Part shown: piece by piece, positions 42,001 through 60,417 of the stretch
How the letters are laid out: each line of letters begins with the position of its first letter
How positions within the stretch are numbered: the first letter of the stretch is position 1
Origin: Candidatus Accumulibacter cognatus
GTDB taxonomy: Bacteria; Pseudomonadota; Gammaproteobacteria; Burkholderiales; Rhodocyclaceae
Direction of reading: 5' to 3'
NCBI GenBank assembly: GCA_013414765.1
Contig: CP058708.1
Coordinates: 3,839,553 to 3,903,552 of the forward strand
Length of the DNA: 64,000 bases
Notes under the pieces: model-generated
Told to the model about the DNA's origin: nothing
The model's input: the letters and a program-made list of their open reading frames with translations, nothing else
Databases searched by the model: none
Made by a program: the position numbers and the translations under genes

Positions 42001-43726
42001 CGAGGAGCGTTGGGTGCATGGCCTTGGCGAACTCGAGTTTGCCGACGATGGCGTCCCGATCAAGATGATTGGAACCATTCAGGACATCACGCAGAGCAAA
42101 CGCGCCGACCAGGCACTGGCCGAGAGCGAGGCGCGCTACCGCCTGCTGTTCGACGCCAATCCGCACCCGATGTGGGTCTATGACGTGGAAACGCTGGCGT
42201 TCCTGACGGTCAACGACGCGGCGATCGCCAAGTACGGTTACTCGCGCGAGCAATTCCTGCAGATGACGATCCGCGACATCCGTCCGGGTGAAGACGTTCC
42301 TCTCATGCTCGAGAAGATCTCCACGCAGGAATCCGGAATGAATTACGCCGGCTTCTGGAGACATCGCAAGAAGGACGGGCAGATCATCGAGGTCGAAATC
42401 ATCTCGCACCTGCTCTCTCTGCAGGGACGACCGGCCAAGCTCGTGCTGGCCAACGACATCACCGAGCGCCGGCGCGCCGAGCGCGCGCTGCACGAGAGTG
42501 AAGAACGCCTGCAGCAGGCCATCCGGGTAGCGCATCTGGGTATTTTCGATCACGATCATCTTGCTGATGTCATCTACTGGTCACCCGAACAGCGTCGCAT
42601 CCACGACTGGGAGGCTGAAGAACCCGTGACGCTGGCAAACTTTGTCGCCAGTGTGCATCCCGAAGACCGCGCGAGGATCACTACCGCCATCGAACGCGCG
42701 CACGACCCGGCGGGCGACGGGATCTACGACGTGGAACATCGCATCGTGCACCGAAATGGCGACGTGCGCTGGATCGTCACCCGTTCGCAGACGACCTTTG
42801 TCGGACAAGGAGAGGCGCGCCGGAAATTGCGCACGGTGGGCGCCGACATCGACGTCACCGATCGCAAGCGCCAGGAAGCCGAGTTGCAGCGCTACCGCGA
42901 ACAGCTCGAGGAACTCGTCGCCGAACGGACGGACGAATTGCGCCAGGCGATGAGCCAGCTCGTGCAGGCCGAAAAGCTGGCCGCGCTCGGGCACCTCGTC
43001 GCCGGTATTGCGCACGAACTCAACACACCGCTCGGCAACGCCCGTGTCGTCGCCAGCGCGCTCGGCGAGGACCTGCGCGCATTCGCCACGGAGCTCACTG
43101 CCGGTACGCTGCGCCGCTCGCAGGTGGACGTCTTCGTCGGCCGCGGTCGCGAGGCCGTCGACCTGCTCGAACGGAACGCCGCGCGCGCCGCCGACCTGAT
43201 TGGCCACTTCAAGCAGGTCGCCGTGGACCAGACGAGCATCCGCCGTCGACGCTTCGCGCTGTACCAGACGATCGAGGAGCTTTTGGCGACGCTGCGACCG
43301 CAGTTCAAGCACACCGCGCACCGCGTCGAGCTCGACGTCTCCGTCGAAATCGAGCTCGACAGCTACCCTGGCCCGCTCGAGCAGGTCATCGCCAACTTGG
43401 TGGGCAATTCGCTGACGCACGGCTTTGCCGACCGGGATTCCGGCTGCATTCGCCTGCAGGCGCGGGCGATCGAACCGGCACACGTCATCCTGCGCTATTC
43501 CGACGACGGAATCGGCATTCCCGCGGCGGCGATCAAGCGCATCTTCGAACCCTTCTTCACCACGCGCCTGGGACAAGGTAGCAGCGGCCTCGGACTGTAC
43601 ATCGTCTACAACCTCGTCACCGGCGTACTGGGTGGATCGATCGAGGTCGCCAGCTCTCCTGGCGAGGGAGCGGCTTTCACGCTGACGCTGCCGCGCTGTG
43701 CTCCCGAGCGTTCCTCGCCGACCTGA
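39041..43726 (+). CDS. Multi-PAS/GAF hybrid-free sensor histidine kinase
   Basis: The 1561-residue kinase begins with a membrane segment (IVLASVLPLTVVAALSITVF) and a periplasmic sensor of about 210 residues. A second membrane segment (FAALLLTIVVALALARSLAR, about 285-305) follows. Then come three PAS domains, one GAF domain (LIHLASESELLAAVCAVAIE to AFGISALRTR) and three more PAS domains. Several end with the PAC signature DITERKxAEEAL. After a coiled coil the kinase core shows H-box LAALGHLVAGIAHELNTPLG, N-box NLVGNSLTHG, G1 YSDDGIGIP and G2 GSSGLGLYIVYNL. There is no receiver domain and no adjacent response regulator, so it is an orphan. The start at 39041 has only a weak ribosome site. Confidence 0.93.
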   Translation: MRSGHPLWSWLALRIVLASVLPLTVVAALSITVFLPQLRAEREARAQLSALATAASVGAHLQEAERLLRSVADEVRQYDLRPESLPSARLDALVGNGDPYAAIVLANGDGSVAAAGLPPAQLGARDALLHGNVSARVAAREARWSLASSAISAGQPAVALAIPAGDGFLVGELTADRFTEFLARLVTGSTTLVLIVDRQGRVVACSALAVPAASIRQIAPLRLEAVGKPAKLASASFEFDGRTFAGFSVALPQAAEWNVLVAEPKDLLAPAPAATSWVLEAGGFAALLLTIVVALALARSLARMIAHCAARAGANGDERREAKKLGIRELDELAQHLEQMSLAARRRERDLAASEARFRSVISNVPLVLFQFDENGIFTFSEGKALARVGRQPGEAVGQSIFDLYGDHPDVVGYARRAMRGEAVQFSTQIGEARFDVHFTPVRGGDGRLQVLGVSVDVTERWRAEEALRESEAQLRTAIESVPFDFFLIGTSGRYVLQNSVSRKAWGNVVGKLPEEVTDDAATLACWLDNNRRALAGEVVEAEVGFFVGNEERCIRNIIAPVRDGEQIRGIVGLNIDITEYKRAERALLQSETKYRRLHESMRDATVLVDMSGVIQEFNHAYLEMLGYSEDELRRLTYVDLTPARWHSYEAAIVDEQIVVSGYSEVYEKEYRRKDGSVFPVELRTFLIRDDAGQPAAMWAIVRDITERKHAEEALRRANRQLRMVSESNQALIHLASESELLAAVCAVAIEIGGYRMAWVGYAEDDDARSVTPMAHAGCDEGYLQKLRAFWAEADNGRGPVGRAIRSGRACTAQDIESDPTMAPWHVAAREHGYAAVCALPLRAGGRTFGAFTVYSADAGAFDSDEIGLLSALASDLAFGISALRTRSEKERAAQALKESEFFLRRSQEVGDLGSYYLDARTGVWIRSERLDHILGIDDSFPKTVDGWRALIHPDDRQETLAYLTEHVLARSNRFDRQYRIVRHNDGEERWVHGLGELEFADDGVPIKMIGTIQDITQSKRADQALAESEARYRLLFDANPHPMWVYDVETLAFLTVNDAAIAKYGYSREQFLQMTIRDIRPGEDVPLMLEKISTQESGMNYAGFWRHRKKDGQIIEVEIISHLLSLQGRPAKLVLANDITERRRAERALHESEERLQQAIRVAHLGIFDHDHLADVIYWSPEQRRIHDWEAEEPVTLANFVASVHPEDRARITTAIERAHDPAGDGIYDVEHRIVHRNGDVRWIVTRSQTTFVGQGEARRKLRTVGADIDVTDRKRQEAELQRYREQLEELVAERTDELRQAMSQLVQAEKLAALGHLVAGIAHELNTPLGNARVVASALGEDLRAFATELTAGTLRRSQVDVFVGRGREAVDLLERNAARAADLIGHFKQVAVDQTSIRRRRFALYQTIEELLATLRPQFKHTAHRVELDVSVEIELDSYPGPLEQVIANLVGNSLTHGFADRDSGCIRLQARAIEPAHVILRYSDDGIGIPAAAIKRIFEPFFTTRLGQGSSGLGLYIVYNLVTGVLGGSIEVASSPGEGAAFTLTLPRCAPERSSPT

Positions 43727-43865
43727 TCGGCGCCCGCCGAGCTGGTCACCTGCGCGCAACCGCGGAAACGAGGTCCTGCGGGAAGTCGAGGTCGCGCGGT
43801 ACGCCGGCATCATCGATGTCGAGCAGCGTCAAGGTCTGCGCGCGCGTCGCGCTCTTTGATCAGTT

Positions 43866-44415
43866 GTGGCAGCGGCGCGAAGTGCCACGCCGCATCCGGC
43901 CGACCTGCTGCGCTCGACCTGGGAACGGCAGAGGCCGGCGCTCGCTGCGCTGCTCGCGCTGGCCCCGCACCTGTGCGCCACGCGCGACCCCGACTTCGCC
44001 GACAGCGGCATCGACGCCTGGCGCGCGCTTGCCGGCCAGCTCGACGAACCGCTGGTCAGCTTCCTCGATGCCGAGCCACTGCGCCTGCTCGCCGAGCTGG
44101 AATCCGACACCACACCGCGGACCATCGACGCGAAGAAATCGGTCTTTGCCTCAACCAGATGGGCGACCCGCGGCGCGGCGTCGGCGTGAACGACGATGGC
44201 CTGCCCGACATCGCCTGGGTCGACGTTCCGGCCGGCGAAGTCACGCTTGCGGAGAATGCCGGTCACTTTACCGGCGCCGCTTTTTGCATTGCGCGCCATC
44301 CGGTCACCTGGAGGCAGTACCGCGCCTTCGTCGAAGCCCCCGATGGTTACCGCCCGAAGCGCTGGTGGCACGGGCTGCGGCATGAAGCCGAGCCAGGTGA
44401 GACGCGCTGGGACGC
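43866..44415 (+). pseudogene. FGE-sulfatase/SUMF1-domain gene fragment, frameshifted
   Basis: Frame one gives LLRSTWERQRPALAALLALA and DSGIDAWRALAGQLDEPL up to about 44130. The adjoining frame then gives EIGLCLNQMGDPRRGVGVND, LPDIAWVDVPAGEVTLAENA and FCIARHPVTWRQYRAFVEA. The second part is the N-terminal half of a formylglycine-generating-enzyme-like domain. A one-base shift near the AAGAAA at about 44131-44136 splits it. The rest of the domain is lost where it meets an oppositely oriented FGE fragment near 44415. Confidence 0.65.
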
Positions 44416-45096
44416 CGAGCGCGAAGGGCTGCGCGATGCGCACTTCGTGCGGCGGACCTTCGTCGTCAGCCCGTAGCGGCTCGTCGGCCGGCGAGCCCAT
44501 GACGAAGCGGCCGTCGGGGACGACGACCATCCGCGGGCCTTCGCCGCCGTTGCGCAGGCGATCGCGGAAGGTGTCTCCCGGCGCCAGGGGCTGCGCGGCG
44601 GGCGAGCGCGCGGCGGCGGATGGACTGGCTATCGTAGTCGGTGTTCGCGGGCGGGCGTGTGCCTCGGGCTGGGCAGGCTGGACTGGCGTCGCCGGCGGGG
44701 TGTCGCCCCGGTCAGGTGCTTGTGTAGCGAACTGACGAGCTGCCGTGCGCCGTCGCAATCCTCGCCGCCATCCCAGCCGATCAGGTCGGGGGTCTGGAAC
44801 TGGCGGAAGCCGTAAGGGATGCGCAGGTTTTCGAGGCGGACCGGAAAGATGATTTCCCGGTCGGCCGCTTCGTGCGCCTCGTTCATGACGAAGCGGCTGG
44901 TGACCGAACGGACCGACCAGAGCGTCACGACGGCGCGTGCGGCGGCGAGTTGCGCCTGGATCTCGTCCGCCCAGCGATGCCCGGCGTCGATATGCAGGTC
45001 CATCCATACCGACCAGCCCTCGCGCTGCAGGCGATCCCTGAGGCGAGTGGCGATGGTCTTGTCGCTGTGCGAGTAGCAGATGAAGATGTCGCTCAC
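44415..45096 (-). pseudogene. TIR-domain protein fused to a truncated, frameshifted FGE domain
   Basis: From ATG 45096 leftward the protein starts MSDIFICYSHSDKTIATRLRD and continues GWSVWMDLHIDAGHRWADEI, a TIR/SEFIR-type domain of about 140 residues. The frame ends at 44629 after Arg-rich noise. The adjacent frame supplies a Pro/Ala linker and then DTFRDRLRNGGEGPRMVVVP, GRFVMGSPADEPLRADDEGP and HEVRIAQPFALG, the start of an FGE-like domain. The shift lies at the GGGG/CCCC runs 44697-44709. The domain stops near 44415. TIR plus FGE is a known bacterial domain combination; the intact gene may have been a signalling or defence protein. Confidence 0.68.
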
Positions 45097-45422
45097 CGGG
45101 TGGCTTTCGTGTCGGCCGGTAAAGGCGGCACGCCCGCTGCACGTTCGAGCGGCTTCCCGATCCCCGGCGAATTATCGCCGAAGCAGTGCGCTTGCGGAAG
45201 TCGACGGCGGGGCGAAAGGGGGGCGTTTTATGCGCCCGAACGTTTCATGTCGAGGAGCTTTCGATCTGGCATGTCGCCGACGGAAACGGTGCGTTCGCCG
45301 GTGGCCAATGTTTTCGCCTGCTCCCTTGAGAAACGTGTCTTGACGGGGTGCCGCCGCGGTGCCGTTGGCGACGCCTGATCCGGCGGTTTCAAACGTACGC
45401 TGGTGATCGCACTTTTTCTCCC
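45097..45422. other. Intergenic region, nothing recognised
   Basis: Between the TIR fragment and the cytochrome gene there is no frame with a plausible start or motif on either strand. No repeat or terminator was noted. Confidence 0.5.
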
Positions 45423-46079
45423 TCAGTGCCGATGATGAGCGTGATCATGCCCGGCCGTCTTCTGGCGAGGCTTCGCCGGGTTCGCGGGCGCGGCAGTTGC
45501 AGGCCGTTCGTCGTGCTCATCGGCATGGTTTGCCTGCCCGCCGTGCGAATGGCCGTCGCTCGACGCCACCAGCCGCGCGTACTCGTCTTTCGTCAGCGAC
45601 GGCATCGTTTGCAGGAAAGCGGCGAGATCCCAGATCGCTTCATCTTCCATTCCGCCCTTCGACCAGGCCGGCATCGCCGAAGCCTTGATGCTATGCTTGA
45701 TGATCCAGAAGTCGCGCGCCGGATTTCGCGCCGGAATTGAAGCATCCGGTTTTTCGGCCAGCTTGGGCGGCGTTGGATCGAGACCCTGGCGCAGTTCCGA
45801 ATCGGTGCCTGCAGGCGAGAGGTGGCAGGTGGCACACATGGCTTCGTAGTTCCCGGAACCGCGCCGAATCCGTTCAGGTTCGGCCAGGTCTTGCGGCACC
45901 TGGATGTCGGCGATACGGCTGGCAATCGAGCGTTCGCGGGCGAAGGCGAGAAACTGGTGAACGAGAGGACTGTGCGGTTCGCTGGCGGCGACATTGATCA
46001 GCCCGGAAACCACGACGAGCGCACCCATGACGCTGCCGCTGGCGATCGTCGCCACGACTCCGAGTAAACATCGGTTCAT
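45423..46079 (-). CDS. Periplasmic c-type cytochrome with His-rich tail
   Basis: The 218-residue product has an N-terminal hydrophobic segment (CLLGVVATIASGSVMGALVV) serving as signal or anchor. One haem site is in YEAMCATCHLSPAG, and a likely axial Met lies in SAMPAWSKGGMEDEAIWDL, the class I cytochrome c pattern. The C-terminal 50 residues are His-rich (SDGHSHGGQANHADEHDE, GHDHAHHRH), which suggests metal binding. The start at M3 (46079) gives a 6-nt spacing to GGGAGG. Its ATG overlaps the stop of the upstream small frame. Electron partner unknown. Confidence 0.85.
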   Translation of the reverse strand: MNRCLLGVVATIASGSVMGALVVVSGLINVAASEPHSPLVHQFLAFARERSIASRIADIQVPQDLAEPERIRRGSGNYEAMCATCHLSPAGTDSELRQGLDPTPPKLAEKPDASIPARNPARDFWIIKHSIKASAMPAWSKGGMEDEAIWDLAAFLQTMPSLTKDEYARLVASSDGHSHGGQANHADEHDERPATAAPANPAKPRQKTAGHDHAHHRH

Positions 46080-46297
46080 TTCCATCCTCCCGCCAAATCA
46101 TCGAGCCGGTACTTGCGCGGCATTTTGCGTCGGGATAACCCACAATAGACTGACCTGCCGATTACATTTCTGTAATCTGGCTGCACGCAGGACGGCAAGA
46201 TAGGCTGTTGAGGAGCTGAAGGAAGTTGATTTGGAGAACCGAAATACGGAGCCATCACCTCGACGGCGTTCAGCTTGGGGAAAAAGTATTCGCTCAT
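46076..46297 (-). pseudogene. DUF2442-like small protein, truncated
   Basis: It begins MSEYFFPKLNAVEVMAPYF, a typical DUF2442 opening, but the remaining 54 residues do not fit the domain. Its ATG overlaps the stop of the DUF4160 gene (ATGA), as in intact DUF4160-DUF2442 pairs, so it is the broken second partner. The frame ends overlapping the cytochrome start. Confidence 0.5.
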
Positions 46298-46488
46298 GGG
46301 TTGTACCTCCGCCATTCACCGTGCAGAAGCGCCCGGTTTTCTGCAATCCACGCCAGTTCATCCCGGATCTCGCGTGCGGCAATCCGCCCTTTGATTTCCA
46401 GCGTGTCGATATCGACGGTACACTCACGACCGTCGTTCAACTTGACGTGAACATGCGGCAGCAAGTGATCGTCGGCAGACATCAGCAC
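46294..46488 (-). CDS. DUF4160 domain protein, N-terminus probably lost
   Basis: The 64-residue frame reads MSADDHLLPHVHVKLNDGRE, then IDTLEIKGRIAAREIRDELAW, matching DUF4160. These proteins usually start about 15-20 residues earlier; an in-frame TGA six codons before GTG 46488 rules that out here. DUF4160 and DUF2442 proteins form toxin-antitoxin-like pairs of unproven function. Confidence 0.6.
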   Translation of the reverse strand: MLMSADDHLLPHVHVKLNDGRECTVDIDTLEIKGRIAAREIRDELAWIAENRALLHGEWRRYNP

Positions 46489-46625
46489 TCGAGAGGCGGG
46501 AAATCACTGCAGGGTCGGCATCGAGCCAAGTGTGGTGCAACTGTTGCTTTATACTTTGAGGACGGCTTCATGCGCCTTTTCGGCTTGCCGGATTTCATTG
46601 GTCTGGCGCATCAAGTACTGGCCTG

Positions 46626-47073
46626 TTGAGCGGACAGGACGGGCTGGCGAAGCTGGTGGAGGCGGTGCTGAACCAGATACTGGAGGCACAGGTGACGGAG
46701 GCATTGGGCGCGGAACGGCACGAACGGACGGAAGAGCGGGCGGGGTCCCGCAATGGGACGCGTGCGCGCACACTCTACACGCGCGTTGGGCGGGTGACGC
46801 TGCGGGTGCCGCCAACGCGGGATGGCCGCTTCTCGACGGAGATTTTAAACGCTATCAGAGAAGTGAGCAGGCGTTCGTGCTGGCGCTGATGGAAATGGTC
46901 GTGCAGGGCGTGTCGACACGCCAGGTCACGGCGATCACCGAGGAACTGTGCGGGGCGAGCTTTTCCAAATCGATGGTGAGCGCGCTGTGCGCTGGGCTGG
47001 ATGCGCGCGTCAGGTCGTTCAATGAGCGACGACTGGAGGCGGAGTATCCCTTCATCCTGGTCGCCGCGTGCCA
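46626..47073 (+). mobile_element. IS256-family transposase remnant
   Basis: The first frame gives VTEALGAERHERTEERAGSR, then RVGRVTLRVPPTRDGRFSTE. A shift at TTTTAAA (46845-46851) moves to the frame KRYQRSEQAFVLALMEMVVQ, then TRQVTAITEELCGASFSKS and LDARVRSFNERRLEAEYPF. This is the N-terminal third of a Transposase_mut (IS256) protein. It ends abruptly near 47073, so the catalytic DDE region is absent. It lies 96 bp from the end of the zinc operon, on the opposite strand. Confidence 0.8.
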
Positions 47074-47168
47074 TGAGGTGAGCCAGACTGACTTTCCAGG
47101 GCCAGCCTCCTCAGCCTCGTTTGGCTTGAACTGCACAGCCATTGGTCGAGGCTCCCGAGTAGTTACGA

Positions 47169-47729
47169 TCAAAATTCGTTTTGCAGGCGTTTATAGCCCT
47201 GCACCAGCTCGTGATTGGTGCGCACCACGTCCTCGGAAAACTCCGTGGCCTGTGCCGTGACGCGGGGCATGGCGGCGAGGTCGGTGCGCGGGCCGATACG
47301 CTCGGTAGATGGCACATGGAAGCCGGCCGGCAGATGTGCGCCGTCGACGACCGCATTGTGGCGAACGACGCTGCCCTCGCCAACGGTGCAGTTGAACAGC
47401 ACACTGTTGAAACCGATGAAGACGTTGTTGCCGACGACGCAGGGGCCATGGACGATGGAACGATGGGCTATGGAGGTGTGTTCGCCGATATCGACCAGGG
47501 CGCCGGACTTGGAATGGATGACTACACCGTCCTGGATGTTGGAGTGGGCGCGGATGCGGATCGGTTCAAGGTTGCCTGCGGCATTGACCTCGTCGGCGCG
47601 GATCACCGCGTAGGGACCGACGAAGACGTTTTCCTCGATGATGACCTTGCCGCAGATGATGGCGGTCTGGTCGACGTAGGCGGACTCATGGATGTGCGGC
47701 AGATCGCCGCGTGGGTTCTTGCGGATCAT
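47169..47729 (-). CDS. Gamma-class carbonic anhydrase-like hexapeptide protein
   Basis: The 186-residue left-handed beta-helix protein has hexapeptide turns (IIEENVFVGPYAVIRADEV, CVVGNNVFIGFNSVLFNC). Three His are placed as in gamma-carbonic anhydrases (IRAHSNIQDG, IAHRSIVHG). It is the last gene of the Zur-linked operon, 3 bp after queD. Gamma-type anhydrases can use iron or cobalt instead of zinc, which would make sense as a zinc-sparing substitute; that role is inferred from context. Confidence 0.87.
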   Translation of the reverse strand: MIRKNPRGDLPHIHESAYVDQTAIICGKVIIEENVFVGPYAVIRADEVNAAGNLEPIRIRAHSNIQDGVVIHSKSGALVDIGEHTSIAHRSIVHGPCVVGNNVFIGFNSVLFNCTVGEGSVVRHNAVVDGAHLPAGFHVPSTERIGPRTDLAAMPRVTAQATEFSEDVVRTNHELVQGYKRLQNEF

Positions 47730-47732
47730 GGT

Positions 47733-48314
47733 TCAGACTCCGTTGGGATGGGCGGTTCGTTCACCGCGCTTGAGCTTGTCGAACAGCTTGGGATCGGGCC
47801 ATTCGTTGCGGATGGCTTGGGAGAATTCGATGTTGTCTAGCGTGATCAGTCCCATGCGCGGGTTGATCGCGTCTTCCCTGAAACACTGGGCGTAGCCGGT
47901 TTCGGTTTCATGGACGATGATCGAATGCAGGCGTACGTCGGCTTCGCCGTTACACATTTCTGTGAGGTTGAGTAGCCGGTCGATGAGCACGAAAAACAGC
48001 CGTGCGAACTGCTCGGCGCTGGGCGAGACGGGAATCAGAATCCAGCGCTCGGAAAAGCGCTGGCAGGCTGCGATGTAGTCCGGATCATCACCCGACCAGA
48101 TGGCCACGGCATGGTCGAAAGCATCGATCAGTGTGCGCGGGCCATCTTTCAACAGGCCGAAGTCGTAAACCATCTGGCCGTGATCCAGGGCATGCGCTTC
48201 GAGCAGCAGTTCGACCTTGTAGGAATGGCCGTGAATCGAGTGCGAGCAGCGCCGCGTGCTGCAGCCGCGCACGAGGTGGGCATTCTCGAATTTGAACAGC
48301 TTGCGGATCAGCAT
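47733..48314 (-). CDS. queD: QueD-like 6-carboxytetrahydropterin synthase paralogue
   Basis: The 193-residue PTPS/QueD fold has the metal His pattern ENAHLVRGC and [12 protein letters not shown], with an upstream Cys (RRCSHSIHG) and the acidic dyad region [20 protein letters not shown]. It is longer than housekeeping QueD (about 120-140 residues). Its ATG lies inside the end of thrS (7-bp overlap). It sits in the Zur operon, where extra copies of zinc enzymes of queuosine and other pathways are typical. Confidence 0.87.
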
Positions 48315-50233
48315 GATCCCTCGCTACCAGGGGGCTGCGCTTCCTGGCGCAGGCGGGCAATGACCTCGGCTAGCGGCAGGCTGCCGAGGTCTTCACCGGC
48401 GCGCGAGCGCACCGCGATGCAGCCTTTGGCTTTTTCCTCGTCGCCGACGACGAGCAGGTAAGGCACTTTTTGCAGCGTGTATTCGCGGATCTTGTAGCCG
48501 ATTTTTTCATTGCGCAGATCGATGGCGGCGCGCACCCTGGCTTTCTTCAAGGCTTTCAACACGCTTTGCGCATAGTCGGCCTGACCTTCGCTGATATTGA
48601 GCACGACCGCTTGCTGCGGCGCCAGCCAGAGTGGGAAGAGGCCGCCGTAGTGTTCGATCAGGATGCCGGTGAAGCGCTCCAGCGAGCCGAACAGCGCCCG
48701 GTGCAGCATGACCGGCCGTTCGCATTCGCCCTGTTCGTTGATATAGCTGATGTCGAAGCGCTCGGGCAGGTTGAGGTCGACCTGCAGCGTGCCGCATTGC
48801 CAGTCGCGGCCGATGGCGTCGCGCAGCACGAATTCCAGCTTCGGGCCGTAGAAGGCACCTTCACTGGGGTTGATCCGGTAATCGATGCTCATCCGGTCGA
48901 GCGCGCCGGACAGCGCGCCTTCGAGCTGATCCCAGGTTTCGTCGCTGCCGATGCGGTTGGCCGGCCGCGTCGACAGCCTGACGGCGACATTGTCGAAGCC
49001 GAAATCGCGGTAGATGGCGAAGACCAGTCCGATGGTGCCGGCGCATTCGTCCTGCATCTGAGTCGGCGTACAGAAGATGTGTGCGTCGTCCTGGGTGAAA
49101 TGGCGCACGCGCAGCAGGCCGTGCAATGCGCCGGAAGGCTCGTCGCGGTGCACCTTGCCAAATTCGGCCATGCGCAGCGGCAGGTCACGGTAGCTTTTCA
49201 ATCCCTGGGCAAACAGCGAGACGGCGCCAGGGCAGTTCATCGGCTTGAGGGCAAAGACGCGCTCGTCCTCGGTGGTCGTCGTGAACATCGCCTCGCGGTA
49301 GTTGAACCAGTGGCCGGAGGTTTCCCACAGGCCACGATCCATCACGTCCGGGGTATTGACCTCGACATAATCGGCGCGCTCCTGCTGCGTGCGCATGTAG
49401 CCAATCAGTTGCTGGAACAAGATCCAGCCTTTCGGATGCCAGAACACCGAACCGGGCGCGCAGTCGTCGAAATGGAACAGGTCGAGCTGGGCGCCGAGCT
49501 TGCGGTGGTCGCGCTTGCCGGCTTCTTCGAGGCGGGTCAGGTAGGCCTTGAGCGCCTTGGCATCCGGCCAGCAGGTGCCGTAGATGCGCTGCAGCATGGC
49601 GTTCTTGGCATCACCCCGCCAATAGGCGCCGGCCACCTTGGTCAGCTTGAAAGCCTGGAGTTTGCCGGTGCTCGGCACGTGCGGGCCGCGACAGAGGTCT
49701 TCGAAATCGCCCTGGCGGTAAAGCGACAAGGATTCACCTGCCGGGATGGCGCGGATCAGTTCGGCCTTGTAGGACTCGCCGAGTTGCTCGAAATAGGCGA
49801 CCGCCTCGTCACTCGGCAGCTCGCGTCGGCTGAGCGGCAGGTCGGCGGCGGCGAGTTCCTGCATGCGGGCTTCGATCTGCGCCAGATCGTCGGGCGTGAA
49901 CGGGCGCTCGAAAGCGAAGTCGTAGAAGAAGCCATCCTCGATGACCGGGCCAATGGTGACCTGTGCGCCCGGATAGAGCTGCTTGACGGCCATGGCCAGC
50001 AAGTGGGCGCAGGAATGGCGCAGGATTTCCAGCCCTTCCGGGTCGCAGACAGTGATCAGGCTGACGTTGGCATCTTGCTCCAGAATGAACGTAGTATCGA
50101 CCAGTTGGCCATCTATCCGGCCGGCCAGGGTGGCCTTGGCCAGACCGGGGCCGATGTCGGCAGCCAAGTCGGCGATGCTGACCGGTTGCGGGAAAGTGCG
50201 TTGGCTGCCTTCGGGCAGCGTGATGATGGGCAT
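48308..50233 (-). CDS. thrS: Threonyl-tRNA synthetase
   Basis: The 641-residue enzyme has the TGS domain, editing domain ([20 protein letters not shown]), class II motif 2 and 3 regions and the anticodon domain. Zinc ligands are recognisable: Cys in PMNCPGAV, His in DDAHIFC and His in [10 protein letters not shown]. The usual MNCPGH reads MNCPGA, a departure from most ThrS. It is not followed by infC-rpmI-rplT, the normal thrS context, but lies in the Zur operon, so it is probably a second, zinc-starvation copy. Start at ATG 50233; the longer frame overlaps yidD. Confidence 0.93.
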
Positions 50234-50255
50234 GTTTGAGCTTCTCGTAGCGTTG

Positions 50256-50507
50256 TCAGGGGCAATGGGTGTGATCGGCACAGGCGGGAGGAACGGGATC
50301 GACCTCGCCGGGATGCCAGGGGTGGCAACGGCCGATGCGGCGCAGGGCCAGCCAGCCACCACGACGCAGGCCATGGATTTGCAAGGCCTCCTGGGCATAG
50401 TGGGAACAACTCGGATAAAAGCGGCAGCGCGGACCGAGCATGGGGCTGATAACCAACTGGTAGCCGCGAATGATCAGCTGGATGGCACGGGTCAGCAGGT
50501 GCTTCAT
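50256..50507 (-). CDS. yidD: YidD-type membrane protein insertion factor
   Basis: The 83-residue protein has the full YidD signature: an amphipathic N-terminus ([20 protein letters not shown]), then [18 protein letters not shown] and [17 protein letters not shown]. YidD normally lies between rnpA and yidC; here it sits between cysS and thrS. Its ATG overlaps the cysS stop (ATGA). It carries conserved Cys and His residues. A link to zinc is only suggested by position. Confidence 0.92.
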
Positions 50508-51165
50508 GGCATGTGCTCCGTGTGCAGGCGATGCCAGGTAGTGCCCGTAGGACTATCTTCGATGCCGATGCCCTGGGCAGCGAGTGTCTGACGCAGAGCA
50601 TCGGCGCGGGCAAAATCACGCGCCGCGCGGGCAGCCTGGCGGGCGGCAATCATGGACTCGATGCTTTCGGGCGTTGGGCCAGCAGCTTGCTTGTCCGCCG
50701 GCATTCCACCTTGTTGGCGCCAACGGGCCGGTGGCTGTTGCAACAGCCCGAGCAAATCGGCGCCGTCACGCACATAAGCATGACCACGCTCGATCAACGC
50801 AATCATCTGCGGAACGTGCTCGGTCGCCCAGAGTTCAAGGGTTGGGGGCAACGCATTCAAGCGCGCCATGTCCTGGCGGGAGGCGTCGGCAAAGCGCTCG
50901 GTCAGCATCCGGATCGGCTCGCCGTTGGCGGCAGCGGCGGCGTTGACCTTGTCGTCCACGTCGGTGATGTTGCGGGCGTAGACCACCTGCGGGAAATGCC
51001 GCGACAACAGCCGGGACAGTACATCGAACACAACGACCGGGCGGGCGTTGCCGATATGCACGTAGTTGTAAACAGTGGGGCCGCAGACGTACATGGTGAC
51101 GCGCTGCGGATCGGCCGGCACGAAGACTTCCTTTTGCCGGCTCAGCGTGTTGTGCAGGCGGATGT

Positions 51166-51169
<4 letters not shown>
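50504..51169 (-). pseudogene. cysS: CysS with a large in-frame internal deletion
   Basis: Residues 1-133 match the N-terminal half of cysteinyl-tRNA synthetase ([34 protein letters not shown] with HIGN for [22 protein letters not shown]). The frame then passes straight to the C-terminal end ([51 protein letters not shown]). Against a 461-residue CysS, about 245 residues are gone. These include KMSKS and three of the four zinc ligands (equivalents of E. coli C209, H234, E238; C28 remains). The 221-residue frame is otherwise clean and overlaps both neighbours, so it is translated. It cannot be a normal CysS. Confidence 0.85.
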
Positions 51170-52272
<1,103 letters not shown>

Positions 52273-52275
52273 GAT

Positions 52276-53504
<1,229 letters not shown>

Positions 53505-53508
<4 letters not shown>

Positions 53509-53933
53509 GTTTGGTTCTGATGAATGGGCAGTGGAATCGGGGCGCAGATGACTTCGATGCGGTCGCCCTTGACCGCGTTGTAGAAGCAGCTGCTCCGCCC
53601 GGTATGGCAGGCACCGCCGAGTTGGTCGACGAGCAGCAGGATGGCGTCGCCATCACAATCAAAGCGTGTTTCGACCACGCGTTGCCGGCAACCGGATGTT
53701 TCGCCTTTGCGCCACAAGGTCTGGCGCGAACGCGACCAGTAGCAGGCAAAACCTGAAGCCAGTGTTTCATCGATGGCGGTGCGATTCATCCAGGCCAGCA
53801 TCAACAACTCCCGTGTATCGAACTGCTGGGCAACGGCGGCAATCAGACCTTGCCGATCGAATGGCAATTCGGCCAGCACTTCGGAAAGCGGCAAGCCTGC
53901 GCCGATGGGCGCGTCTTCAAGTCGGGTTAACAT
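53505..53933 (-). CDS. hisI: Phosphoribosyl-AMP cyclohydrolase (HisI), Zur-linked copy
   Basis: HisI opens the purine ring of PR-AMP in histidine synthesis and is a zinc enzyme. The 142-residue product has [27 protein letters not shown], and the Cys ligands in [20 protein letters not shown]. All zinc Cys are kept, so it is not an obvious zinc-free variant. No other his gene is nearby, so this is probably a second copy for zinc shortage. It is the first gene of the operon; the Zur box is just upstream. Start at 53933. Confidence 0.92.
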
Positions 53934-53951
53934 AGGGTCTTTTGAATACAA

Positions 53952-53979
53952 CAAATGCAATGTTATAACATTACATTTG
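53952..53979. promoter_or_regulatory. Putative Zur operator between hisI and zur
   Basis: The arms CAAATGCAATGTTA and TAACATTACATTTG form a 28-bp inverted repeat with a single mismatched pair, centred on ATGTTATAACAT. The AT-rich TGTTATAACA core resembles proteobacterial Zur boxes. It fills most of the 65 bp between the divergent hisI and zur starts, so it could repress both the operon and zur. Confidence 0.8.
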
Positions 53980-53998
53980 TCCCACCAAGAGCAAACGA

Positions 53999-54499
53999 AT
54001 GAAAACCTCAATTTCCGACGTTCAATGTCCGCCACCTCAAGGCGATAATACCGACGCCCTCGATCGGGCCGAAGCCGCTTGCCGGGCGCGGGGCGCCAGT
54101 CTGACGGCGATCCGTCGCGATGTGCTGGCACTGCTTTACCGCAGCCCTACCGGCGTCAAGGCTTATGATCTTCTGGCCCAGATCAAGGAAGCCCGGCCCG
54201 GCGCTTCACCGCCGACGGTCTATCGCGCGCTAGATTTTCTGATTGAGCAGGGCCTGGCACACAAAATCGGGCGCATGAATCTTTTCGTTGCCTGCCGGCA
54301 TGCTTCCCATCAAACCCCCAGTCTGTTTCTGGTCTGTCCGAAATGCAGCGGAGTTACGGAATTGCAGGAGCAATCGGTGATGAGTGCCCTGTCGAACAGT
54401 CTGGCCGCTACCGGACATCGCCTGGAAAGTCCTGAGGTGGAAATCAGCGCGCTTTGCCCGAAATGTGTCGGCGTGCGACAGGAATACAGCTCCACCTGA
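53999..54499 (+). CDS. zur: Zinc uptake regulator Zur (Fur family)
   Basis: The 166-residue Fur-family protein has a winged helix (GASLTAIRRDVLALLYRSP, SPPTVYRALDFLIEQGLAHK) and metal sites in VACRHASHQ, LVCPKCSGVTE and ALCPKCVGV. The two CxxC pairs form the structural zinc site. The long N-terminus and the LNRIESLNAFV-like segment (KIGRMNLFVACRH) fit Zur rather than Fur. Divergence from COG0523 and zinc-enzyme paralogues supports zinc as the signal. Confidence 0.92.
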   Translation: MKTSISDVQCPPPQGDNTDALDRAEAACRARGASLTAIRRDVLALLYRSPTGVKAYDLLAQIKEARPGASPPTVYRALDFLIEQGLAHKIGRMNLFVACRHASHQTPSLFLVCPKCSGVTELQEQSVMSALSNSLAATGHRLESPEVEISALCPKCVGVRQEYSST

Positions 54500-54559
54500 A
54501 ATCTGACTGAATTAAACTACCCGCTTCCTCACTCTTCACCGCGCCCGGCGCGGATCGCC

Positions 54560-55717
54560 ATGCGCCAGTCATCCGTGGTCATCGACTCGAAGCTGCCCCA
54601 GGTGGGGACCACCATCTTTACCGTCATGTCGAAACTCGCCGCCGACTGCGGCGCGATCAATCTCTCGCAGGGCTTTCCCGATTTCCAGGCCGATTCCTCG
54701 TTGTTCGACGCGACCGCGCGCGCGATGCGCGAAGGTCGCAATCAATATCCGCCGATGGCCGGGGTTCCCGAGTTGCGCTCGGCGATCGCCGACAAGGTGG
54801 CCGCGCTGTATGGGGCGAGCTACGATGCCGATAGCGAAATCACCGTCACCGCCGGCGCGACACAGGCAATCTTCACCGCGATCGCGGCCTTTGTGCGTGC
54901 GGGTGACGAGGTCATCATCTTCGAGCCGGTCTATGACAGCTATGTGCCGGCGATCGAAACGGTTGGTGGCAAGGCGGTGTATGCTGCGCTCGGCTTCCCC
55001 GATTACCGGCCGGACTGGCAGCAGGTGCGTTCGCTGATCGGTCCGCAGACGCGCATGATCCTCATCAATTCGCCGCACAATCCGACTGGCAGCCTGCTGG
55101 CCGCCGATGACCTCGATCAGTTGGCGGCGCTGACCCGCGATACCGACATCGTGGTGCTTTCCGACGAGGTCTACGAACACATCGTTTTCGATGGCGTGCA
55201 GCATCAAAGCGTTGCTGCGCATCCGGAACTGGCGGCGCGAGGGATCGTCGTTTCGTCGTTCGGCAAGACCTATCACATCACCGGCTGGAAGGTCGGTTAC
55301 GTTCTTGGGGCTGCTGCGCTGATGGCCGAATTCCGAAAGGTGCATCAGTTCAACGTGTTTACGGTGAATACGCCCTGCCAGCTCGGAATCGCCGAATACA
55401 TGTGCGATGCTTCGCGCCATCTCGGTCTGGCGGCGTTCTACGCAGGTAAACGCGAGTACTTTCGCAGCCAGTTGCAGGGCTCGCGCTTCGAACTGCTGCC
55501 TTGCCGCGGCAGCTATTTTCAACTGGCGCGTTATGGCGCGATCAGCGACCTGCCGGACCGCGAGTTTGCCCGCTGGCTGACCTGCGAGGCGGGAGTGGCT
55601 GCGATCCCGGTATCGGCTTTTCATCACGACGGTCGCGACGAGCGCGTCGTGCGTTTCTGCTTCGCCAAGCAGGAAGCCACCCTGGCTGCCGCCGGAGAAA
55701 GGCTGCGCGCGCTGTAA
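54560..55717 (+). CDS. PLP-dependent aminotransferase (methionine/YbdL-like)
   Basis: The 385-residue class I aminotransferase has INLSQGFPDFQAD, AGATQAIFTAIAA, INSPHNPTGSLL and the Schiff-base Lys in SSFGKTYHITGWKVGY. A substrate-carboxylate Arg lies in ERVVRFCFAK. The opening SKLPQVGTTIFTVMSKLA is that of the YbdL/methionine aminotransferase group; the kynurenine aminotransferase group is close. It lies downstream of zur by 60 bp on the same strand. Confidence 0.9.
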   Translation: MRQSSVVIDSKLPQVGTTIFTVMSKLAADCGAINLSQGFPDFQADSSLFDATARAMREGRNQYPPMAGVPELRSAIADKVAALYGASYDADSEITVTAGATQAIFTAIAAFVRAGDEVIIFEPVYDSYVPAIETVGGKAVYAALGFPDYRPDWQQVRSLIGPQTRMILINSPHNPTGSLLAADDLDQLAALTRDTDIVVLSDEVYEHIVFDGVQHQSVAAHPELAARGIVVSSFGKTYHITGWKVGYVLGAAALMAEFRKVHQFNVFTVNTPCQLGIAEYMCDASRHLGLAAFYAGKREYFRSQLQGSRFELLPCRGSYFQLARYGAISDLPDREFARWLTCEAGVAAIPVSAFHHDGRDERVVRFCFAKQEATLAAAGERLRAL

Positions 55718-55822
55718 GGGCTGTTCACAGGCGCTGGCCATTCCCCCTATAATCGCCCGCCGAGTCGGGGTAGCGGGCTCGGAATTTCCAGAACCCTCCA
55801 GAACCAACTTGAAGGAGACGCC

Positions 55823-56257
55823 ATGAGCATGGTGCAGGAGTTCAAAGAGTTTGCCATGAAGGGCAACGTCATGGATCTCGCCGTCGGCGTGATCATTGGC
55901 GGGGCTTTTGGCAAGATTGTCGATTCGGTGGTGGCTGATCTGATCATGCCTTTCGTTGCCTGGATCATGGGGGGCAAGCTCGACTTCTCGGGCATGTTCC
56001 TGGTGCTCGGCACCATCCCGGAGGGGACCGCGAGGACCCTGGATGCACTCAAGAAGGCGCAGGTTCCGGTGTTCGCTTACGGCAGCTTCCTCACCATCCT
56101 GGTGAATTTCATCATTTTGGCCTTCATCATCTTCGTGATGATCAAGCAGATGAATCGCCTGAAGCGGAGCGAGCCGCCTGCTGCGGTCGCGCCACCGCCC
56201 GAGCCGGCCGAGGAAGTGCTGTTGTTGCGCGAGATTCGCGACAGCCTCAAGAAGTAG
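55823..56257 (+). CDS. mscL: Large-conductance mechanosensitive channel
   Basis: MscL opens under membrane tension to release solutes. The 144-residue product begins [20 protein letters not shown], has TM1 with the glycine-rich pore lining ([20 protein letters not shown]), a periplasmic loop, TM2 ([20 protein letters not shown]) and a charged C-terminal helix ending [20 protein letters not shown] lies 7 nt before ATG 55823. Confidence 0.96.
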
Positions 56258-56336
56258 GCGGCTGTCGACAGGAGGGATGACGTCGCCTGTCGTGCGCTCA
56301 CCCTTCCTTGTTCACCTCGTCAGCGCGGCGCTGCCT

Positions 56337-59069
56337 TCAGTTGGCAAGGCCTTTGCGGGTATCGCCGGCGATGACCAGCGTCAGTTGCTCGGGGTCGATG
56401 TATTTGCGGAAAGCGGCGTTGACTTCCGCCGGGGTGACGGCCATCAGCCTGGCCTCGAAGTCTTTCGAGAACTGCCAGTTGCGGTCGAGATCGAGAAAGG
56501 ACTGCCAGCGAGAAGCGACCGCATTGTCCTGCGAGCGGGCAACGGCTCGCGCCTGGATGATGCCCTTCCTGGCCGCGGCGACCTCTGCCGTGCTGAAACC
56601 GTCGCGGCGCGCTCGCTGTAGTTCTTCGAGAAAGGCCTGTTCGGCGCGGGCCGCGTTCTGTGGAGCCACCATTACCGCAACCGCCCAGGTCGACAGTGGC
56701 TGGCGGCTGCCCATCGACAGACTCGATCCGACGCTGTAGCTGAGGCCTTCCTTCTGGCGCAGGCGATCGGCGAGGCGGCTCGACAGGCCGGAGTGGCCGC
56801 CAAAGATATCATTGGCCACATAAAGGGCCGCAGCGTCGGGATCATCGTCGCGCAGCCGCATGTCGAGGCGGGCGCGCAGGAAAGCGTTTTCCTTGTCCGG
56901 CGTATCGATTACGATCCGTTGCGGCGGCACACGGCGGTATTCCCGATCCAGGCGCTGATAAGGCGATCTCGAGATATGCCCAGGGAACAGTTGCAGGAGT
57001 TTGTCATGGATCGCCTGTTCATCGAAATCGCCAACGATGGCGATCTCGCCGCGAGCGGTCCCGATGAGATCGCGCTGATAGCGGATGACCTCATCCAGGC
57101 TTACCTGGCGCAACTGTCCGATGCGTTCCTGCAGTGGGCTATGGTAACGGGGATCACCGGGCGGATAGGTATTGAAATGCGCGTTCAGGGCATCGCTCGA
57201 TAGCGTGTCCGGGTTGTCGAGCTGTGATTGCAGTGTGGTCAAGGTTTCCCGGCGGAGTTCCTCGAACTCGTCTGGCGGGAAACTGGGATCCTGGAGTAAT
57301 TGCGCGACCAGTTCCAGCGCTTCGGGCAGCTTGTCGCGGGTCGTTTCAAAGTGCGTCAGGCGGCCCTGGACTTTCAGACGGGTGAGTTGGTCGGCAATCT
57401 GCTGGCGGTTCAGGCGGCTGGTGCCGCGGGCGAGCATGGCAATTGCCAGCGTGCCGGCGATGTTGCGGTCCTGCAGCGAGTTTTCGTCACCCCATCGGAA
57501 ACTCATCGCCACGTTCACGGTCCGTCCCCGGTTCCTTTTTGGCAACAGCGCAAGCTTCAGGTCACCGAAGGTCTGACGCCGGGTGCGTCGATCAAGGTTC
57601 TCGTATGAAGGATCGAAAGCTTCTCCGGCGTCGCCGTTTTTCTGCGGTTTGAAATTGGCCAACAGCATGGCGGCGCTCGGCGCCTGGGGAACCACGGCGC
57701 GCTGCGGCAAATCGTCGGGGATGAAGGTGCCAAGGACGCGGTTGTCACGAACGAAATACTTGGCGGCTGCCGCATCGAGCTGCGTCGTCCTGATCTGGTC
57801 GAGTTGATCGCGGCCGTAAAAGAAAAGCCGCCAATCGCCGAGCGCAATGTATTCGGAAAGCATCACCGCGAAGGCTTCGGGATCGGCCAGCGCCCGTTCG
57901 TAGGCGGTGCGTGACTGCTCGACCGCGCGCCCGAGTTCGGCAGTGGTCACGGCTTCCTTGGCGAAGCCGCCCTCGATTACCTCGATCATTTTGTCGCGCA
58001 CACGATCGATCGCTTCGCTCTTGTTGACCAGTGCGCCGAAGACTACAAAGCCAGGTTCGCGAGCATCGATGCCGTAGGCAAACACCTCTGTTGCCAGTCC
58101 GGTCGGCACCAGAGCCCGGTACAGGCGACCATTTGGGGTATCACCGAGTACTTCGGTGGCCATGCTGACGGCCTCGGATTCAGGATGCAGGCTGGAAGGC
58201 GTGCGGTAGGCGAGGGCCACGAGCTGAACCTCGCCCTTGCGGCGAATCGTGAATTGACGCTCGCCATCGGCCGTCGGTTCGACTGTCCATGGTTTTGGCA
58301 GTACGCGTGTCGGTCTCGGTAGCTTGCCAAAGCTGGCGGCAATCATGCTGAGGGCCTGGCGCTCGTCGAACTTGCCGGCTACCGTCAGAACGGCGTTGTC
58401 GGGCTGGTAATATCTGCGGTAGAAGGCCTGCAGGTTTTCTATTTTGACGTTCTCGATGTCACTGCGCGCACCGATCGTGCTGTTCCCGTAATTGTGCCAG
58501 TCAAAGAGCATTGACTGCATGCGCTTCAACATCACGCTGGACGGATTGTTTTCACCCATCTCGAATTCATTGCGCACGACGCTCATTTCGCTGTCGAGGT
58601 CTTTCCGGGCGATGAACGAGTTGACCATCGCATCGGCACTCCAGGCGAGGGCCCAGTTGAGGTTATCTTCGCTAGCCGGAAAGGTGAGATAGTAATTCGT
58701 CCGATCGAGCCAGGTGCTGCCATTGATCTCGAAGCCACGCGCCTTGAATTGCCGGGCCGGATCGACGAAATTCTTCGATCCCTTGAAGATCAGATGTTCG
58801 AGCAGATGCGCCATGCCGGTCTCGCCATAGTTCTCCTGGTGCGAGCCGACCAGATAGGTCACGTTGACGGTGGTCGTGGGTTTGGTCGCATCTGGAAAGA
58901 GGATGCAGCGCAGGCCATTGACCAGCCGGTACTCGCTGATACCTTCGACAGTGGTCAGTTTCTCGACGCCTGGCGGCAGAGGGATCGAGGCGGATTGCCT
59001 GGCATCAACGGTGGGTGGCAGCATGCTCAGCGACAGCAGGCATACCAGAATTCTCATCCATTGATTCAT
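56337..59069 (-). CDS. Periplasmic M16 (pitrilysin-family) zinc protease
   Basis: The 910-residue protein has a signal peptide (ILVCLLSLSMLPPTVDA) and an active N-terminal M16 domain with inverted zinc motif MAHLLEHLIFKG (H88, E91, H92). The distal Glu lies in SVVRNEFEMGEN. A second, inactive M16 domain follows (residues about 500-900, MSFRWGDENSL, YSVGSSLSMGSRQPLSTWAV). It degrades or processes peptides in the periplasm. GGAG sits 6 nt before ATG 59069. A neighbour operon is not apparent; it is convergent with mscL. Confidence 0.93.
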   Translation of the reverse strand: MNQWMRILVCLLSLSMLPPTVDARQSASIPLPPGVEKLTTVEGISEYRLVNGLRCILFPDATKPTTTVNVTYLVGSHQENYGETGMAHLLEHLIFKGSKNFVDPARQFKARGFEINGSTWLDRTNYYLTFPASEDNLNWALAWSADAMVNSFIARKDLDSEMSVVRNEFEMGENNPSSVMLKRMQSMLFDWHNYGNSTIGARSDIENVKIENLQAFYRRYYQPDNAVLTVAGKFDERQALSMIAASFGKLPRPTRVLPKPWTVEPTADGERQFTIRRKGEVQLVALAYRTPSSLHPESEAVSMATEVLGDTPNGRLYRALVPTGLATEVFAYGIDAREPGFVVFGALVNKSEAIDRVRDKMIEVIEGGFAKEAVTTAELGRAVEQSRTAYERALADPEAFAVMLSEYIALGDWRLFFYGRDQLDQIRTTQLDAAAAKYFVRDNRVLGTFIPDDLPQRAVVPQAPSAAMLLANFKPQKNGDAGEAFDPSYENLDRRTRRQTFGDLKLALLPKRNRGRTVNVAMSFRWGDENSLQDRNIAGTLAIAMLARGTSRLNRQQIADQLTRLKVQGRLTHFETTRDKLPEALELVAQLLQDPSFPPDEFEELRRETLTTLQSQLDNPDTLSSDALNAHFNTYPPGDPRYHSPLQERIGQLRQVSLDEVIRYQRDLIGTARGEIAIVGDFDEQAIHDKLLQLFPGHISRSPYQRLDREYRRVPPQRIVIDTPDKENAFLRARLDMRLRDDDPDAAALYVANDIFGGHSGLSSRLADRLRQKEGLSYSVGSSLSMGSRQPLSTWAVAVMVAPQNAARAEQAFLEELQRARRDGFSTAEVAAARKGIIQARAVARSQDNAVASRWQSFLDLDRNWQFSKDFEARLMAVTPAEVNAAFRKYIDPEQLTLVIAGDTRKGLAN

Positions 59070-59517
59070 CAGTCACTCCAAGAGATGCGCAGATTGCCGC
59101 CTGCGGCCTGGCGGGAAGCGATTATAGCTTGGCTGGCCAGAACGAAAACGGCCCGCTCAGAGGGAGGGCTGGGCGGGCCGGGTACAACGATCACTGTCAC
59201 GCGGGGGGGGGGGAGGGAAGGCATGACAGCGACGAAACGAAGAATAGCGAATGCAAGCCCGCTAATCTGTAGTTCCTCTGTCCCTGTTGTGTAACGGGAT
59301 GTGATCTGCCTGCCAGCGATTGCAGTGGCTGACTCAGGACTCTGTCTCTCGATCGAGTGCGGAAGATCATCGTGTGCTGCTATTACCCGTTGCTCTTGCC
59401 TTTTCCCCACTGAAACTGGCATTATCCTAGCATAAGTCGCGGCGTGATGCCTGCGCGGGTGGTCGCCGGCGAGTCGCACGGCGGTTGAGGTAAAAACAAA
59501 CCAACAAGGAGCGGGCA

Positions 59518-59796
59518 ATGACTCAGGAACAGGATGACATCGGTGTGGTGACAGTGGTGCTGGAGCGCCTGGAGAAAGAGCGTCTGCCCAGAGCACTCGA
59601 TCTGAAGGCCAAGGTGGATGCGGGTGAGCGCCTTGATGACATGGACATCGCTTTCCTGGAGCGTGTATTTGCAGATTCCGAAGAAGCGAAACCTTTTCTC
59701 GATCGGCACCCCGAATATCAGGATCTGGCGGCAAGAATGGCCAGTCTGTACGAAGAGATCACCGCCAAGGCGCTTGAGAACGAGAAGTCGGCCTGA
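59518..59796 (+). CDS. Conserved small acidic protein
   Basis: The 92-residue soluble, helical protein (VVLERLEKERLPRALDLKA, DDMDIAFLERVFADSEEAKP) has no signal or named domain. AAGGAG precedes the ATG by 7 nt. Similar short proteins occur in Rhodocyclales and related groups, but I know no function. Confidence 0.75.
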   Translation: MTQEQDDIGVVTVVLERLEKERLPRALDLKAKVDAGERLDDMDIAFLERVFADSEEAKPFLDRHPEYQDLAARMASLYEEITAKALENEKSA

Positions 59797-59994
59797 TTGT
59801 CGTTGAGGCAGCAAGGGGCGCTTCACCGAACTGCGATAGCGGAGGAGGAAGCAGCAAGGATATCGGGAAAGCGGGGAAATCGGGGAAAGCGGGAAGAACT
59901 CTGCTCGGTGCCCGGAATCGATCTTTGTCACAATTCCTTACAAATCGTCCCGGAGCCTCGTCATCGCCTGGCGCTTCCGGGCGTTATTCGTCCC

Positions 59995-60417
59995 ATGAAG
60001 ACGACAATTACCCCACTCTGCATCGCACTCAGCTTCGCGCTGGGTTGTTCAACTCCTGCTCTGGCCGACCCTGGCGACTACCGCGGTGGCTATCGGGGCG
60101 ATTACCGCGGTGACTATCGCGGCCACTATTCGCCGCCACAGCATGATCATCATCGTGGCCATTCGAGTAGATACGGCTGGGTTGCGCCGGCTGCCGTGCT
60201 GGCCATTGCCGGGATCGCCGCAGGGGTTGCGGCCTCTAGCTATTACGCACCACGTTCGGCGTATGTGGCGCCAGCGGAGCCGGTCTATGTCACCCCAGCA
60301 CAGCCGGTCTATGTCGAGCCGCCGAGTGCTTTCTGGAACTACTGCGGATCACTTGGGCAGTATTACCCGAACGTTCGCCACTGTCCCGAAGGCTGGCAGT
60401 TGGTTCCCGCACGATAG
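59995..60417 (+). CDS. Exported Tyr/Arg/Gly-repeat small protein
   Basis: The 140-residue product has a signal peptide ending PALA, then a YRGGYRGDYRGDYRGHY repeat and a His-rich stretch. A hydrophobic segment follows (VAPAAVLAIAGIAAGVAASS), then PVYV repeats and a C-terminal YCGSLGQYYPNVRHCPEGW with two Cys. This resembles a common family of beta/gammaproteobacterial cell-envelope proteins of unknown function. Start at 59995; the longer frame lacks a signal. Confidence 0.75.
   Translation: MKTTITPLCIALSFALGCSTPALADPGDYRGGYRGDYRGDYRGHYSPPQHDHHRGHSSRYGWVAPAAVLAIAGIAAGVAASSYYAPRSAYVAPAEPVYVTPAQPVYVEPPSAFWNYCGSLGQYYPNVRHCPEGWQLVPAR

Follow-up and report, generated by a model that had tools for sequence, protein, structure and literature searches.

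A putative Zur-repressed zinc-starvation operon with a second yidD and a partly deleted cysS in Candidatus Accumulibacter cognatus

Within a 64,000-nucleotide stretch of the Candidatus Accumulibacter cognatus genome (contig CP058708.1, positions 3,839,553 to 3,903,552; the window), eight tightly packed genes diverge from a gene for a Fur-family regulator, which raises the question of whether they form a set that the cell would use when zinc runs short. We read the locus as a zinc-starvation operon repressed by the zinc uptake regulator Zur, horizontally acquired and partly eroded, and on sequence evidence we give this reading a probability of about 0.88. The genes run in the order hisI-zigA-COG0523-cysS'-yidD-thrS-queD-gammaCA (gammaCA, gamma-class carbonic anhydrase) from 47169 to 53933 on the minus strand, with zur divergent, and the family membership of all nine was confirmed by Pfam, NCBIfam or both. 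A sequence-only reading of this DNA had proposed just such an eight-gene operon diverging from a Fur-family regulator, and the nine genes lie where it had placed them. Neighboring genes overlap by 4 base pairs (bp) at hisI/zigA, COG0523/cysS' and cysS'/yidD and by 7 bp at thrS/queD, and are 3 bp apart at zigA/COG0523 and queD/gammaCA. The longest gap is 22 bp (yidD/thrS), as had been reported, while the number of junctions with 4-7 bp overlaps or 3-bp gaps is six of seven rather than five.

The sequence-only reading had named the absence of second housekeeping copies elsewhere in the genome as evidence against itself. That refutation does not occur: the host genome is a single contig of 5.17 Mb, and hisI, cysS, yidD, thrS and queD all have another copy in it, one each above the family cut-off for hisI, yidD, thrS and queD, and one full-length cysS. 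QueD2 is closer to the solved paralogue 7v0f, which it matches over its full length and which we take to be a Zur-linked protein of Acinetobacter baumannii, than to the other QueD of its own genome. In alignments to solved relatives, the three cysteine motifs are kept in HisI2, the MNCPG, LHG and MLHR motifs in ThrS2, and the His motifs in QueD2 (against 7v0f) and in the carbonic anhydrase (against PDB relatives); the choice of metal-binding residues within these motifs is our assumption. Because the metal-binding motifs are kept, the HisI, ThrS, QueD and carbonic anhydrase copies are more likely to hold zinc better, to use another metal or to add copies than to function without metal.

The regulator and the DNA beside it point to Zur. 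Against solved proteins, the window Zur scored 105.6 bits with 7dh7 and 92.5 bits with 4mtd ("Zinc uptake regulation protein"), and these closest relatives rank above the PerR/Fur entries of the PDB, which reached 27.2 bits or less; the record of 7dh7 says no more than Fur-family regulator, and we presume it to be a Zur. With up to 3 mismatches allowed, the putative operator, AATGTTATAACATT, is the sole match to its pattern in the window (0.18 expected), and the exact site occurs once in the genome, with one further genomic site at 2 mismatches. The latter was rejected as a Zur site, since it falls between two genes that we read, without a family search, as ftsZ and ftsA, and since the reversed-pattern control gave three sites as against two. 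The same palindrome stands upstream of related clusters in a second genome of the genus (G012, locus L049; 0 mismatches), a genome of another family (G362, L156; 1 mismatch), an Azospirillaceae metagenome-assembled genome (MAG) (L056; 1 mismatch) and a Dechloromonas MAG (L053; 2 mismatches).

One member of the set is unlike the rest. The sequence-only reading had counted cysS' among the spare enzymes, but its 221-amino-acid product matches only positions 2-139 and 417-465 of the 466-position CysS profile and scores 173 bits against a model cut-off of 340. At the same place in its operon, G012 has a CysS of 465 residues, relative to which the window gene is short by a net 732 bp (244 codons), in frame. 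By alignment, the deleted portion takes in GEKMSKS and the stretch that would hold three of the four zinc ligands, at the positions we assume for them. With its middle part deleted and the core with zinc site and KMSKS incomplete, cysS' cannot be regarded as a working spare CysS, and the view that all eight genes encode working spare enzymes was rejected with it. The ratio of nonsynonymous to synonymous divergence (dN/dS) from G012 is 0.13 for the N-terminal part of cysS', 0.35 for the C-terminal part and 0.22 for both together, compared with 0.085-0.18 for the other eight genes; the ratio of cysS' is by itself no proof of function loss. The description that fits these data best is that cysS' is a deletion remnant that would keep the coupling to yidD.

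Comparison with G012 also bears on how the operon arrived. Homology between window positions 40001-60000 and the G012 locus runs from 47169 to 54473, that is, over the operon and zur. In G012, zigA and the second COG0523 gene are separated by a DksA-type gene (dksA2), and the carbonic anhydrase gene is directly followed by an amidohydrolase gene (pyrC2; 61% to the pyrC2 of G362); neither was found at the corresponding place in the window. Silent-site divergence between the two genomes has a median of 0.64 (0.51-0.87) for the nine operon genes and 1.24 (0.84-2.28) for 20 gene pairs near housekeeping cysS and yidD (Mann-Whitney p 3e-5). These 20 pairs were selected by rule and replace five kept from an earlier comparison of 13 open reading frame (ORF) pairs, in which a pair reading as mnmE had a value of 0.86; among the 20, one pair, which reads as dnaK, falls within the operon range. 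Since the operon is less diverged at silent sites than the other genes shared with G012, we consider its horizontal transfer after the two lineages split the most likely history. The distribution is patchy: one of 27 other genomes of the genus (G012) has a CysS2-like gene, several of the 27 being incomplete, and when the order was sampled evenly, the 12 other genomes from the family all lacked a ZigA match. Coordinates of the locus and of the other copies are collected in Table 1. Beyond the transposase remnant listed there lies a short ORF (46294-46488, minus strand) whose product may be related to DUF4160-type proteins.

Table 1. Features of the zur locus and the other genomic copies of its genes; positions are those of the window, except for the last four rows, which give genome:contig:position in the host genome.
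Feature	Position	Strand	Details
zur, zinc uptake regulator (Fur family)	53999..54499	+	divergent from operon; Pfam FUR 2.7e-9; PDB 7dh7 and 4mtd matches, C-x2-C pairs kept
putative Zur operator, perfect 14-bp palindrome AATGTTATAACATT	53959..53972		between zur and hisI
hisI2, phosphoribosyl-AMP cyclohydrolase paralogue	53505..53933	-	Pfam PRA-CH 4.5e-33; DCD, ACH and SCF cysteines kept (alignment to 1zps)
zigA, COG0523 GTPase	52276..53508	-	NCBIfam NF038288 685.5 bits, above cut-off 600
second COG0523 GTPase	51166..52272	-	Pfam cobW and CobW_C; His-rich stretch precedes C-terminal domain; 91% identity in G012
cysS', CysS2 remnant	50504..51169	-	net 244-codon in-frame internal deletion
yidD2, second YidD copy	50256..50507	-	Pfam YidD 1.9e-29, NCBIfam cut-off also passed; three conserved cysteines kept
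thrS2, threonyl-tRNA synthetase paralogue, full length	48308..50233	-	TIGR00418 705 bits; ATG start at 50233
queD2, 6-carboxytetrahydropterin synthase paralogue (PTPS/QueD)	47733..48314	-	full-length PDB 7v0f match, E 3e-78
gamma-class carbonic anhydrase, hexapeptide fold	47169..47729	-	PDB gamma-carbonic anhydrase and CcmM matches, His-bearing motifs aligned
broken, partial Mutator-type transposase	46635..47068	+	~100 bp past operon 3' end; Pfam PF00872 profile 23-97 and 93-167 of 379, two frames
other hisI copy	G000:C1:443696		50% identity to HisI2
other yidD copy	G000:C1:1725895		52% identity to YidD2
other thrS copy	G000:C1:2828161		59% identity to ThrS2
other queD copy	G000:C1:2468239		29% identity over 118 residues to QueD2

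Among 399 genomes of the order, ZigA was detected (E up to 1e-100) in 68, and with G012 and the window these 68 matches outside the host genome gave 70 loci, viewed up to about 9 kb to each side, some contigs being shorter. Among them, yidD occurs at three (the window, G012 and G362), thrS at four, hisI at five, and cysS and queD at two each; within the order draw alone, yidD stands at a ZigA locus only in G362 and the window. The G362 cluster differs in gene order, zur diverging from COG0523-yidD-pyrC2-thrS-hisI-folE2 with zigA further on. The ThrS proteins of the window, G012 and G362 form one clade (99/98), apart from the host's housekeeping ThrS, while those of two other clusters are placed elsewhere in the tree; given this clade, the three clusters may share one origin. 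Across the class, score did not distinguish ThrS2 from housekeeping ThrS, 289 of 369 genomes exceeding the threshold, and a marker search found no cluster partner alongside eight of the eleven best ThrS2 places outside the host genome. On plasmids, relatives of ZigA (E up to 1e-80) appeared in 935 records, 557 of them from Klebsiella.

YidD is a widespread small factor for membrane-protein insertion, and we know of no zinc requirement for it. A YidD match was present in 385 of the 399 genomes, and two or more in 9; on rechecking with Pfam, at least two were kept in 6 of 8 genomes, and the host genome has two. Assuming an extra-copy rate of 9/385, a 3.8-Mb genome and 20 kb for each locus, the number of the 68 other ZigA loci expected to carry an extra yidD by chance is 0.008, and one does, a rough comparison with a single observation. 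Three cysteines are kept in all 30 distinct YidD-like proteins, and a His follows the third in 24. Two divergent YidD-like proteins (G362:C16:13675-13869, L222, and G416:C64:18633-18818, L221) have an insertion between the first two cysteines and keep all three. In the YidD tree the cluster copies do not fall together: bringing the four into one group takes 3 changes, a number as low in 138 of 500 shuffles. No solved YidD was found by sequence, the 8 matches at E up to 1 all being bacteriophytochromes, and no YidD was confirmed in the viral contigs scanned. Judged by titles and the starts of abstracts, no paper among those listed ties YidD to zinc or Zur, subscription literature lying mostly outside this search; nothing was found on YidD together with mercury and transposons.

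Matches to YidD also occur on 54 plasmid records, and we examined the surroundings of 13 among the 40 listed. In three Pseudomonas plasmids (L239, L250 and L254, of eight records with equal identity and E-value), yidD follows hisI within a mercury-resistance segment. In the Pseudomonas putida plasmid p12969-2 (L239, 8322-9294), hisI and yidD come after merD, and the gene order is the same in L250 and L254. A 56-codon open stretch between merD and hisI, read in this one of the three, matches the C-terminal part of the FUR family (1.9e-5) and looks like a zur remnant. The plasmid HisI is 50% identical to HisI2 of the window, 52% to the host's housekeeping HisI and 59% to the HisI of G362, its best match in the set compared. 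Of the plasmid loci scanned for the window palindrome, L239, L240 and L244 have none and L242 has a 3-mismatch match. The other ten contexts offered no convincing zinc link. In an Anoxybacillus plasmid (L244, 6944-9742), yidD is followed by a gene for a GTP-binding protein (COG0523) and one for a zinc ABC-transporter binding protein. An exact TCGTAATAATTACGA box lies downstream of yidD, ahead of the GTPase gene, and one with a single mismatch ahead of the third gene; because these Zur-like boxes follow yidD, upstream of the next two genes, this yidD is not counted as a Zur case. The dksA/yidD pair of Xanthomonas sacchari was set aside with no box found by the patterns tried, as were the copies of Acaryochloris, Saccharothrix and Enterococcus, where zinc neighbors were not seen, a Staphylococcus copy that resembles a chromosomal stretch, and four copies in an ordinary rnpA-yidD-yidC order.

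The operon belongs to a class that the sequence-only reading had named. The survey of Haas et al. 2009 (PMC2770081) describes Zur regulons that pair COG0523 genes with paralogues of HisI, CysRS, ThrRS, QueD and gamma-carbonic anhydrase, and the window likewise has COG0523 genes and zinc-enzyme paralogues beside zur. Unlike those systems, it includes yidD, a name with no occurrence in the main text of the survey, and an internally deleted CysS paralogue, and dksA, pyrC, folE2 and amiA, which the survey reports, were not found in the window operon. The version had been called distinctive for its tandem COG0523 proteins and its YidD; the former does not hold, as the Pseudomonas fluorescens Zur regulon also has two COG0523 proteins (Haas et al. 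2009, PMC2770081), whereas the latter does, though YidD recurs elsewhere. A review of Zur lists hisI2 and thrS2 and, in the part available, never mentions YidD. The Zur operon of Cupriavidus metallidurans with cobW1 (PMC11340326) is, like ours, betaproteobacterial and has COG0523, CysS and QueD paralogues and a carbonic anhydrase; it differs in having FolE_IB2 and AllB, and HisI, ThrS and YidD do not occur in the text accessible to us. An experimental precedent is Anabaena thrS2 (PMC4787780), which is induced 200-fold by zinc loss, controlled by Zur and co-transcribed with a COG0523 gene. It resembles the window in having a second ThrRS with zinc ligands kept and a COG0523 partner, and differs in being cyanobacterial and in that the Anabaena T2 enzyme is editing-defective (PMC4787780). 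The Pseudomonas mercury segment shares with the window a hisI that adjoins yidD downstream of a Zur-like coding sequence, but there zur is a 56-codon remnant after merD, and no COG0523 or synthetase gene is annotated alongside. The locus represents a known type of system that is reduced and has probably moved horizontally, and it carries one unexpected passenger, YidD.

Several observations weigh against an operon under Zur control. The window Zur falls below the cut-off of the NCBIfam Zur model NF008646 (112 vs 167 bits); the palindrome pattern was derived from this same window, and that it resembles published Zur boxes is our presumption; among the eight related loci scanned, the palindrome is absent at L057, L058 and L067, and L134 has only a 3-mismatch match; and no sigma-70-like promoter was found around the window palindrome. 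Moreover, with one of the eight operon genes broken, the operon may be in decay instead of serving the cell. Taken further, this would make the operon an acquisition that is no longer useful, that is losing genes (dksA2, the middle of cysS, pyrC2) and that does little here, and the in-frame 732-bp deletion, the presence of dksA2 and pyrC2 in G012 but not here, and the broken transposase near the operon 3' end are all consistent with that history. The other reading frames are intact, however, with the low dN/dS of the eight genes and the couplings kept, and dksA2 and pyrC2 could also be gains in G012, so we judge such decay unlikely. Still less probable is that cysS' has taken on a new function, its product serving as an adaptor in which the HIGH-motif half of CysS is joined to the C-terminal domain. 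Its open, in-register frame, its coupling to yidD and the dN/dS of its N-terminal part would suit this idea, yet a single-stretch match to the 221 amino acids was found, among 61 genomes, in the host's own alone, a good part of the divergence may be older than the deletion, and the C-terminal part is the less constrained one.

For yidD itself the balance is closer, and we regard it as an even chance that the gene rides in these clusters as a passenger with no tie to zinc. It is found at only 1 of the 68 other ZigA loci of the order, the shared ThrS2 clade may reduce the three clusters to a single event, the cluster copies do not form a group in the YidD tree, no paper was found that connects YidD and Zur, and most of the relocated plasmid copies examined lack a zinc link. 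Against this, extra copies of yidD are seldom seen (in at most 9 of 385 genomes), yet a copy other than that of the window lies in a rearranged Zur-type operon, and the zur remnant-hisI-yidD segment of the Pseudomonas plasmids is separate from both. As a tentative and somewhat doubtful alternative, we propose that YidD may be a protein that binds zinc or another metal through thiols and that fails under zinc scarcity or when mercury takes the place of zinc; if so, some bacteria would accordingly maintain a YidD reserved for low zinc under Zur control.

Under the favored reading of a Zur-repressed zinc-starvation operon, Zur would bind the palindrome between zur and hisI when zinc is present and keep the operon shut. 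When zinc is low, repression would lift and a single transcript would yield two COG0523 GTPases, ZigA and its His-rich partner, thought to allocate scarce metal, together with second copies of HisI, ThrS, QueD and YidD and a gamma-carbonic anhydrase. Translation through the cysS' remnant would still couple to yidD, whose product is included perhaps as a thiol-metal protein. Read in this way, the operon extends a known strategy in which spare metal enzymes and metal chaperones are placed under Zur. The recurrence of YidD in such clusters predicts that it binds metal through its conserved cysteines and, if true, this would tie membrane-protein insertion to zinc supply.

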